Source: Naganishia liquefaciens
Taxonomy: Eukaryota; Basidiomycota; Tremellomycetes; Filobasidiales; Filobasidiaceae
DNA length: 64,000 nt
Assembly: GCA_013423385.1 (NCBI GenBank)
Contig: BLZA01000011.1
Span: forward strand, 309,174-373,173
Reading direction: 5' to 3'
Made by a program: the position numbers and the translations under genes. Below are positions 17,067 to 20,148 of this stretch, piece after piece. Position 1 is the first letter of the stretch. Every line of letters begins with the position of its first letter. Below the pieces are notes generated by a model, which worked only from the letters and a program-made list of their open reading frames with translations, was not told the origin of the DNA and made no database searches.

Positions 17067-20000
17067 ATGTCCGACTCACAACCATCACAACTTCCCATCA
17101 ATCCGGAGGATAACCAGAGAGCCGTTCAAGAAGCTCTGAACAAGCTCGGCTCCCTCCGGAGAATGTCGATGAGCGGAGGCGGCGCGTTTACGCCCCTCAA
17201 CCCTACACCCGGCAGCGGCACCCTCTCACGGCAGCCTTCGACGGGCGCCTCCTCTCGGACTGCGTCGCGGGCAGCATCCCGCGCCGGATCACGACCGGGA
17301 ACGCCCGGAGTGCCTGCCATGCAGAATCCTTCGCTTCATCTGACAGAGGGGATTTCGGGACCGGATGGGCTGCCCTTGGGAATGTCAGAGCTGGATGATC
17401 CCAATGATGGAATGACGGCAGCCGAAGCCCGAGCACTCAGCGTACCTGGAACACCACATTTCGGCGCGCAGACGGAAATGTTGAAGACCCTGGACGACAC
17501 TACGCGGTTGATTCGACAAACGTCCACGATGAATACAAGGACTCCATCGGTATCCGGTATCGGTACACTCGTGGAAAAGCCAGACTACTCGGAAGCCAAG
17601 CTTGTCGTCGCCATGGTCGGCTTGCCCGCACGGGGTAAATCGTATCTCAGTAACAAGCTCATGAGGTATCTGCGATGGCTGGAGTACAAGGTCGACGTGT
17701 TCAACGTCGGACAGCTTCGAAGGCGAAAGGCCAGGGATCTGCAGGAGGCTGGGAAACAAAAGACGGATCATTCGGCGGATTATTTCTCGGCTTCAAATGA
17801 AAAGGCTTCGGCGTTGAGAGAGCAATTGGCAACTGAGACTCTGGAAAGTCTCATTCGGTGGGTCAAGGCGGAAGGCAATGTTGGCATCATGGGTAAGCTC
17901 CTGAGATCTACGTGAAGAATATTGTCTGATTTCCTCCCCTTCGTAGACGCGACCAACAGCACATTCGCGCGTCGGAGCAAGATTCGAGAACGGCTCTCGC
18001 ACGAACCAAATCTCCAGCTCATTTTCCTAGAGTCCTACTGCGATGATCCTGCGACCATTGCAGCAAACATCGCTCTGAAGGCTTCATCGGGCGATCCCGA
18101 CTATGCCGGTATGACCAAGGAGGAGGCCGTGGCCGACTTCCGGAAGAGGATTGCACAGTACGAGAGCATCTACGAAACAATCTCCGAGCCCGATATCTCC
18201 TTCTGCCGGATTCTGAATGTTGGACAGATGGTCACGATGAACAAGATTGATTCGTACTTGCAGAGTCGAATCGCTTTCTACCTGATGAACTTGCATCTTA
18301 AGCCCAGAAGCATTTACCTTTCACGAGTGAGTACACCATGAGCCTGCCGATGTGATCTTGTACTAAGCGGATCGCGCGCCTCTTAGCACGGTGAAAGTAT
18401 GCATAACGTCGGAGGCATGATCGGCGGAGACTCTCCTCTTTCGCCTCGGGGTGAAAAATATGCCTCTGCCTTGCCGGCTTTGGTGTTGGAGAATATCGGA
18501 GATGCACCGATACAGGTGAGATAGCAGATGCGATACTGGTCGGGCGAGAATTTGAAACTTGCTCCTCTGCTCAGGTCTGGACTTCTACCCTTCAACGTAC
18601 TATCGCTACGGCCAGACATCTTCCCTACCCAAAGAAGACATGGAAGTCACTGGATGAGCTGGATGCAGGCGTTTGTGATGGAATGACGTACGAAGAGATT
18701 GCCGTGGGTCGCTTCGTCGATGGGCTTATCGTATGTATGACTAACCGATCGTCGATACAGGACAAGTATCCTGAGGACTATGAAGCGAGAGATGACGACA
18801 AGTTCAATTATCGGTACAGAGGTATGATAAAAAACGAGAAGACATATTACAAACTCACCTCGTCATTCAGGAGGAGAATCTTATCGCGACGTTATTGTTC
18901 GCCTGGAGCCTGTCATCATGGAGCTTGAGCGACAAGACAATATCTTGATCGTGTGCCACCAGGTAAGATGCCGAAGCTCTGGCGGCTGAACTATGCTGAT
19001 CACGGTCATTTCTCAGGCTATCATTCGATGTCTGTACGGCTACTTTATGGGCATTTCCCAGGCGGAAATTCCGTATATCAAGGTACGATTGACTAGCTCT
19101 ATCGGGATGTTGATGCGAAATTGACCGGTCCTTGCACTCAATAGGTGCCCCTACATACACTGATTAAATTGAGCCCACGTGCATATGGGTGTGAGGAAGA
19201 ACGATACCCGCTGCCGATTGCCGCTGTCGATACACATCGACCTAAACCGCAACGAAAGACGAACGCAAACACGCCTGTTCGATCTCCGCCTGTTGGAGGC
19301 GACTCGAACACTGCCCGAGACTACTTTGGCACCGTACCCACCTCGATTCAGCAAGCTGCGACGTCGACACCGCAACTAGGCTCCGCCGCCAAATCGCCTG
19401 ACTCAACGCTTTCAAAACAAGAACAGCAACAGACCGAGCAACAGGCAGACCAGAATGGCCGGGTCGAAAAGGAAGAAATCGTCACCGAACACAACGCTGC
19501 CATCCACACTCGCAACAGGAAAGGCGAATTCACCTCGGAAGTGCATGAGGGCATTGATTCACCAACCCAAGCTGCTATGCTTGCCGCGCTGGCACAGCAG
19601 TCGGCCTCCCGAGCAAAGAACAAGCCGAGTTTGATCGCTTTCGAAGATTTGGATAAGGATACATGGGACGAGGAGCTTTGCACCAAGCCTGGCACTGACG
19701 GGGCAGATCCTCTTCAGTACAACAAACGCAGGATCTACTGTCCGAGAAAGGAATGTGGCAGCCTGATTCTGAATGCCGGTTCAGGAGATATGGTCATTGA
19801 AGACAGAGAGGTGAGGTTCACCAGATAGCATATCCCACTAGCGCTGATTTTTTTCTACAGATGCCGTCGGACGAGAAGGCTCCCTTCAAACCCGATCCGC
19901 GAATGTCTCCGAACGGGATTGAAGGTAAGGAAGCTACCCTGTACTGGCACGTCGATGGTTCTCCCTTCGCCTTTGAGAACATCGGTTTCTCGCGAGCCAT

Positions 20001-20148
20001 TCCCGGCGCCGACAACGATAAAAACAAGAACATCAAATGGCTCGTGTGCGCTGAATGTGACCTTGGCCCGCTGGGCTGGTGCTATGAAGGAGGTAATGAG
20101 GCATGGCTAGCAATCGGACGGGTGAACTATGGTCCTCCGGCACAGTAG
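17067..20148 (+). CDS. 6-phosphofructo-2-kinase/fructose-2,6-bisphosphatase fused to an Mss4/DSS4 domain
   Basis: The first part makes and degrades fructose-2,6-bisphosphate, the regulator of glycolysis versus gluconeogenesis. Nine exons (17067-17892, 17947-18326, 18387-18515, 18575-18703, 18761-18821, 18871-18962, 19017-19082, 19145-19810, 19861-20148) give 878 residues. The order is a Ser/Arg-rich regulatory N-terminus (1-175), the kinase domain with P-loop GLPARGKS (185-192), and the bisphosphatase with RHGES (catalytic His403) and CHQ (His538), so both activities look intact. VPLHTLIKLSPRAYGC ends the usual fold near 577. Without any stop, about 135 low-complexity residues lead to an Mss4/DSS4 domain with C760-X4-C765, FENIGFSR, and C846-X2-C849 followed by DLGPLGWCYEGG. 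Mss4 is a zinc-binding Rab chaperone/exchange factor. A separate Mss4 start at Met706 cannot be excluded. Confidence 0.85.

Follow-up and report, generated by a model that had tools for sequence, protein, structure and literature searches.

A putative fusion of PFK2/FBPase2 with Mss4/DSS4 in Naganishia liquefaciens and related Filobasidiales

We propose that one gene in a 64,000-nucleotide stretch of Naganishia liquefaciens DNA, the whole of which is referred to here as the window, very probably encodes a single three-domain protein in which PFK2/FBPase2 is followed by ~100 residues of mostly disordered linker and then by a complete Mss4/DSS4 domain, and that the parts were joined once in the Filobasidiales. 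The relevant features, with positions counted from the first letter of the window, are as follows.

17067-20148, + strand: coding region of the fusion gene, nine exons, 878 aa, stop TAG included
17067-17892, 17947-18326, 18387-18515, 18575-18703, 18761-18821, 18871-18962, 19017-19082, 19145-19810 and 19861-20148, + strand: exons of the fusion gene, from splicing
17586-18305, + strand: 6PF2K (6-phosphofructo-2-kinase) domain, aa 174-395, with one intron inside (Pfam 1.7e-65, 220.9 bits against a cut-off of 27)
18312-19201, + strand: His_Phos_1 (fructose-2,6-bisphosphatase) domain, aa 398-580, with six introns inside (Pfam 6e-39, 134.2 bits against a cut-off of 21.7)
19145-19810, + strand: exon 8, holding the bisphosphatase end, the linker and the first half of Mss4 in a single stop-free frame (open reading frame and splicing)
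19259-19552, + strand: linker, aa 600-697, with ARDYFG and then EHNAAIHTRNRKGEFTSEVHEG conserved in Naganishia-type sequences (alignment)
19559-20133, + strand: homology to free Mss4 over almost its whole length (model positions 3-176 of 180), aa 700-874, split by the intron 19811-19860 (profile E 1.1e-50)
19577-19579, + strand: M706, sole in-frame ATG from the HRPKP motif to the first zinc Cys (alignment)
19721-20127, + strand: Pfam Mss4 domain, aa 754-872 (5.9e-16, 59 bits against a cut-off of 22.6)
19811-19860, + strand: last intron, within Mss4 (splicing)

Removal in silico of eight GT..AG introns of 49-62 nt yields a protein of 878 aa and 96.8 kDa. Exons 19145-19810 and 19861-20148 lie where an earlier note on this DNA had placed them and join in phase 0, the latter, exon 9, completing the Mss4 domain begun in exon 8. 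The note had also described the bisphosphatase end running through a linker into Mss4 without a stop in one exon; Pfam places 6PF2K, His_Phos_1 and Mss4 in this order in the 878-aa protein, all three above cut-off, and the CX4C, FENIGFSR, CX2C and GPLGW motifs are all present, which bears the description out. With its homologues in Naganishia friedmannii and N. adeliensis the protein shares 85 and 84% identity. The genome behind the window comprises 19.4 Mb in 28 contigs, with the fusion gene on contig C6. The coding region opens with an N-terminal extension rich in Ser/Arg (17067-17580), whose RRMSMSGG motif is identical in three Naganishia-type proteins and includes an RRMS that we take, from the motif, to be a possible PKA site. 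Downstream on the same strand, at 20732-21500, lies a gene that by eye, from the list of open reading frames, apparently encodes an RNA-recognition-motif protein (LFVGNLSPAVDE).

The enzyme half carries the motifs of both activities. A Walker A motif, GLPARGKS, occupies aa 185-192, and the bisphosphatase motifs are RHGES at aa 402-406, with the phospho-accepting His 403, and CHQ with His 538, the second His of the bisphosphatase site; these align with PFKFB3, and the enzyme core matches human PFKFB3 4d4j at 5.1e-125. Because the motifs of both activities are kept, this half should set fructose-2,6-bisphosphate. It resembles PFKFB1-4 and fungal PFK26/FBP26 in domain order, Walker A, RHG and second His, and differs from them in the C-terminal Mss4 domain. 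PMC9721465 states that the RHG His is required for the bisphosphatase and that each of the yeast isoforms has lost one of the two activities.

The genome holds a second PFK2-type gene (L018:1181-4150, contig C25), with no Mss4 match at that locus. Its RHG motif, which spans an intron spliced by eye, reads R-S-G, with Ser replacing His, and for this reason the gene is probably kinase-only, like yeast PFK26, which carries Ser at the same position. Two of its kinase exons are separated by ~1 kb (L018:1706-2715), against introns of 49-62 nt in the fusion gene, and this stretch may be an insertion. A search of the genome with the bisphosphatase part gives eight matches, all at these two loci, which points to the fusion as probably the sole fructose-2,6-bisphosphatase of this type in the genome.

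The Mss4 half has the zinc ligands C760-x4-C765 and C846-x2-C849, the same four as in the homologues P0001, P0002 and P0055, and keeps both FENIGFSR and GPLGW. A 163-aa piece matches, over its residues 39-158, the MSS4 chains 1fwq and 2fu5 (6.1e-12 each) and 1hxr (9e-12). Family and protein searches of the 19.4-Mb genome, in six frames with introns ignored, found no second Mss4. Because the four zinc ligands and the motifs are kept and no other Mss4 was found, the Mss4 half of the fusion should be the cell's Mss4. By analogy with MSS4, whose handling of nucleotide-free exocytic Rabs is described in PMC6767298 (section 3.2), it would bind nucleotide-free Sec4/Rab8-type Rabs and keep them soluble or release their nucleotide. 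The genome contains a Rab8/Sec4-like exon (L013) with Rab-8A as its best PDB match (9.8e-21) and SEC4 at 1.3e-16, a possible candidate client of the Mss4 half. With MSS4/RABIF and yeast DSS4 (PF04421) the fused domain shares the zinc fold, the four Cys and the FENIGF and CAEC..GPLGW motifs. Elsewhere these proteins are free, with 115-123 aa in solved structures and 175-220 aa in Kwoniella (Tremellales) and Vanrija (Trichosporonales), whereas here Mss4 is the C-terminal part of a metabolic enzyme and has lost its own start; the usual Mss4/DSS4 trait of a free small protein with its own start, which is not strictly defining, is absent from the fusion.

A ColabFold model was made of the homologue P0001, in place of the window protein, from a 35-sequence alignment. 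The model is weak overall (pLDDT 59.9, pTM 0.41), the linker blocks not exceeding 50 and those of Mss4 ranging over 54-93, and free-Mss4 residues misaligned on the enzyme part may account for some of this weakness. Foldseek ranks PFKFB3 (6iby) first (1.4e-25), with a target TM of only 0.43 that marks a poor superposition of the enzyme. At ranks 29-31 stand MSS4 1hxr (1hxr_B, 3.3e-7) and the MSS4-Rab8 complex 2fu5 (2fu5_A, 7.5e-7), with values from 3.3e-7 to 8.4e-7 and target TM of 0.68-0.74. Cereblon-type folds also match the model, at E ~2e-3.

The earlier note had suggested looking for the same domain order in related genomes; the full order recurs in P0001, P0002 and P0055, and half forms occur in P0054 and P0056. 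With aa 660-878 as query, two of 523 candidates pass E <= 0.001, the fused proteins P0001 and P0002, a count that is a lower bound since this search depends on shared words. With aa 170-640 as query, 2534 enzymes are retrieved; among the 120 listed, Pfam finds Mss4 in three (P0001, P0002, P0055), and a profile finds the first half of Mss4 in two more (P0054, P0056). P0001 and P0002 are named Naganishia proteins, held in public databases as 'hypothetical protein' with the three Pfam domains precomputed; they and the metagenomic P0055 (1027 aa) are full fusions.

The Mss4 profile was built from ten free Mss4s (nine of Kwoniella/Vanrija, one metagenomic) and searched against 186 targets, namely the window protein, P0001-P0007, 118 further enzymes from the list (P0054-P0171) and 60 shuffled controls. 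It matches the window protein, P0055, P0001, P0002, the exon-8 open reading frames P0003-P0007 (3.9e-18 to 7.2e-16), P0054 from Filobasidium floriforme (1.1e-12) and the metagenomic P0056 (3.7e-10). Not one of the remaining 115 listed enzymes has a full-protein E below 0.93, the value of the best of them, an unfused enzyme, and none of the 60 shuffled-tail control rows falls below E 6.6. The exon-8 open reading frames run into Mss4, four of them beginning in the bisphosphatase end and the fifth, P0006, in the linker at ARDYFG. Since P0006 and P0002 are nearly identical, not all ten fused relatives are independent. P0047, a jumbled metagenomic open reading frame with an end matching exon 8, was left out of this count. 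Recurrence of the join in related yeasts argues against a chance open frame. Pfam calls no Mss4 in P0054 or P0056, which carry the linker and the first Mss4 half and end 9 and 22 residues past GM, at the place of the window gene's last intron. In these two and in the exon-8 open reading frames, the frame runs into V-R or V-S (GM-VR, GM-VS) near that position, which fits a GTGCGT- or GTGAGT-like donor; read from the protein letters alone, P0054 and P0056 would be gene models that run into the intron.

The linker had been called low-complexity, a description that holds in part; the second half (EHNAAIHTRNxKGEFTSxVHEGIDSP) is nearly invariant among Naganishia-type sequences. Most of the linker varies from genus to genus. 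ARDYFG has a similar form in the C-terminal tails of unfused Tremellomycete enzymes. Beyond this motif, homology to unfused Tremellales-type tails was rejected, as the profile comparison (0.05%, E 0.8) was no better than that with reversed tails (0.11%, E 0.51), and the exact junction point is therefore not fixed. The gap between the His_Phos_1 and Mss4 Pfam domains is long, ~170 aa; in helminths, long inter-domain gaps mark annotation artefacts, and fused-gene artefacts of this sort are common there, as set out in PMC12964723.

The frame of exon 8 was examined in several ways. Of 5000 dinucleotide shuffles of the 294-nt linker, 762 keep an open frame, as do 139 of 5000 shuffles of flanking intergenic DNA, and the open frame of the linker alone is weak evidence of coding. 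Codon scores favour the gene frame, and are supportive and modest: the linker scores 0.18 bits/codon in this frame, the highest of six (next best 0.00), compared with 0.15 for the Mss4 part of exon 8, 0.02 for the best of twelve intergenic frames and only 0.03 for the certainly coding start of exon 8, after training on 13 long stop-to-stop open reading frames from the window, which are not verified genes. An unrecognised intron that gives the first part its own stop had been raised as a possibility in the earlier note, and two scans of exon 8 uncover no plausible one. A branch-site scan gave no candidates; under a looser branch-site rule, a branch is recognised in just 6 of the fusion gene's 8 real introns, and the scan was therefore repeated without the rule. 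Two of 19 GT sites (19189 and 19191) were then donor-like under a model drawn from the eight introns of the fusion gene alone. Both fall in codons of the conserved YGCEEERYP, with no pyrimidine-AG acceptor 40-100 nt downstream.

Comparison with free proteins shows the loss of the Mss4 start. Free Tremellomycete Mss4s have an N-terminus with an M-x-Q-P-(S/T)-Q-A-x-I-x-A-A-L-like segment, which appears in the fused proteins as GIDSPSQAAMLAAL (Naganishia types), GISQADIARAL (Filobasidium) and EPQPSSDQIALAL (P0055), and none of the 11 fused rows in the alignment has a Met where free Mss4 starts. A separate start near 19576, considered in the earlier note, can be located at M706, the only in-frame ATG, at 19577. 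This Met is found in the window protein and seven other Naganishia-type rows of the alignment, and it aligns with Ile/Leu of free Tremellomycete Mss4s, not with their start Met. Fourteen free or listed-as-free Mss4s start 54-76 residues before the first zinc Cys. In P0055 the 156 residues ahead of this Cys are free of Met, the nearest Mets lying 157 and 175 residues before it, which argues that the P0055 Mss4 is without an AUG near the old start. Later internal Mets occur in P0054, at 43 and 2 residues before the zinc Cys, and in P0056, with seven in the interval.

A maximum-likelihood tree of 25 enzyme cores, from the window protein and 24 of the 120 listed enzymes, places the six long fused proteins in one group (99/95) with one change of state and no unfused enzyme inside it. 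The sister position (87/86) is held by eleven enzymes without Mss4, from Kwoniella, Cryptococcus, Tremella, Vanrija and kin, and under midpoint rooting the enzymes of Mrakia and Phaffia, also without an Mss4 match, lie further out. K. shivajii, K. newhampshirensis and Kwoniella sp. CBS 6097, the three species with both proteins among the matches listed, have enzyme and Mss4 on contigs of different length and with distant locus tags; the ancestral genes were therefore probably not neighbours. The Mss4 tree was rejected as proof of a single origin, since the fused copies group with Tremellomycete Mss4s and are not resolved as one group. We propose that separate enzyme and Mss4 genes of earlier Tremellomycetes would have been joined once in the line to the sampled Filobasidiales. 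The joining would have cost the enzyme its stop, and the alignment with free Mss4s reveals the loss of the start codon of Mss4.

Both domain families are well known. Among the open-access papers listed, none names a fusion of PFK2/FBPase2 with Mss4 in its title or abstract start, and this is consistent with the earlier note, whose author knew of no described case. Among the 51 Mss4 homologues listed, 24 (within P0014-P0053) have a GNAT acetyltransferase domain (PF13673); 15 of these 24 are named (Rhizoctonia, Ceratobasidium, Mycena, Trametes, Sparassis, Favolaschia) and nine are unnamed. These mushroom proteins resemble the fusion in having Mss4 as the C-terminal part of a larger enzyme-domain protein. 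They differ in the partner, and the Mss4 tree, which included five of the 24, puts these five outside the Tremellomycete Mss4s. The existence of the GNAT-Mss4 proteins suggests that fusion of Mss4 to an enzyme has happened repeatedly.

We envisage that a single chain of enzyme, flexible tether and Mss4 would be made, in a 1:1 ratio. PFK2/FBPase2 is a dimer, and each particle would therefore carry two Mss4 copies on flexible tethers. The tethered domains would hold or unload nucleotide-free exocytic Rabs, as described for MSS4. Two versions of this explanation differ on coupling only. According to the first, to which we give a little better than an even chance, the halves are independent on one chain, and the fusion is a harmless accident kept since a lost start codon is hard to regain. 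It is favoured by the variation of most of the linker between genera, by the low confidence of the linker in the model and by the GNAT-Mss4 proteins, which suggest that Mss4 tolerates N-terminal partners. The group of fused enzymes, however, contains no unfused member, and the near-invariance of part of the linker in Naganishia types indicates that some of it may have a role.

The second version, in line with the suggestion in the earlier note of a tie between glycolytic signalling and secretory Rab activity, posits functional coupling, such that the nutrient/PKA state of the enzyme gates the access of Mss4 to exocytic Rabs, or Rab/Mss4 recruits the enzyme to secretory vesicles; we hold it tentatively and consider it rather unlikely. 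Animal MSS4/RABIF is reported as a chaperone in GLUT4 exocytosis in the review PMC6767298, which would be in keeping with such a link. So would the completeness of both halves, the recurrence of the join and the RRMS motif near the N-terminus that three Naganishia-type proteins share. The linker nevertheless differs between genera, and in other fungi Mss4 works without PFK2/FBPase2 as partner, as yeast DSS4 does. Independent halves on one chain are thus likelier than a regulatory link. Coupling could extend to a Filobasidiales metabolite-to-secretion switch in which the cell's only Mss4 would travel with the enzyme that sets fructose-2,6-bisphosphate and the nutrient/PKA state of the enzyme dimer would control the amount of ready exocytic Rab (Sec4/Rab8), linking sugar supply to secretion and transporter delivery in one molecule, a speculative and unlikely proposal at present.

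It is improbable, in our judgement, that the gene gives two products, the fusion plus a shorter Mss4 made through an internal start at M706 or by linker cleavage. A start at M706 would keep the zinc domain whole, this Met is present in the window protein and in seven Naganishia-type rows, and P0054 and P0056 also have internal Mets. M706 does not align with the free-Mss4 start, however, and the Met-free 156 residues before the zinc site of P0055 indicate that such a device is not common to the whole group. It is still harder to believe that the Mss4 fold now serves the enzyme as a zinc domain, structural or regulatory, and has given up its Rab service: related folds do have other uses, as the cereblon-type matches illustrate, but the Mss4 signature is kept and the genome searches returned no other Mss4. 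Two adjacent genes, separately transcribed, with frames run together by chance are highly improbable, common as such cases are in helminth annotation according to PMC12964723, given that the join lies inside one exon and is independent of any gene predictor, recurs by profile in ten other sequences (P0006 being nearly identical to P0002) and in one enzyme group, and comes with no usable splice-site pair in exon 8 and with the free-Mss4 start gone.

In the single-chain fusion, a central metabolic switch is paired with part of the exocytic Rab machinery, a domain combination that did not come up in the open-access literature searched. With no Mss4 found in the genome apart from the fused copy, a single gene serves for both Mss4 and the enzyme. 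The fusion would offer a natural system for asking whether sugar metabolism and secretion couple via Mss4, for which the reported role of RABIF in GLUT4 delivery is a hint.
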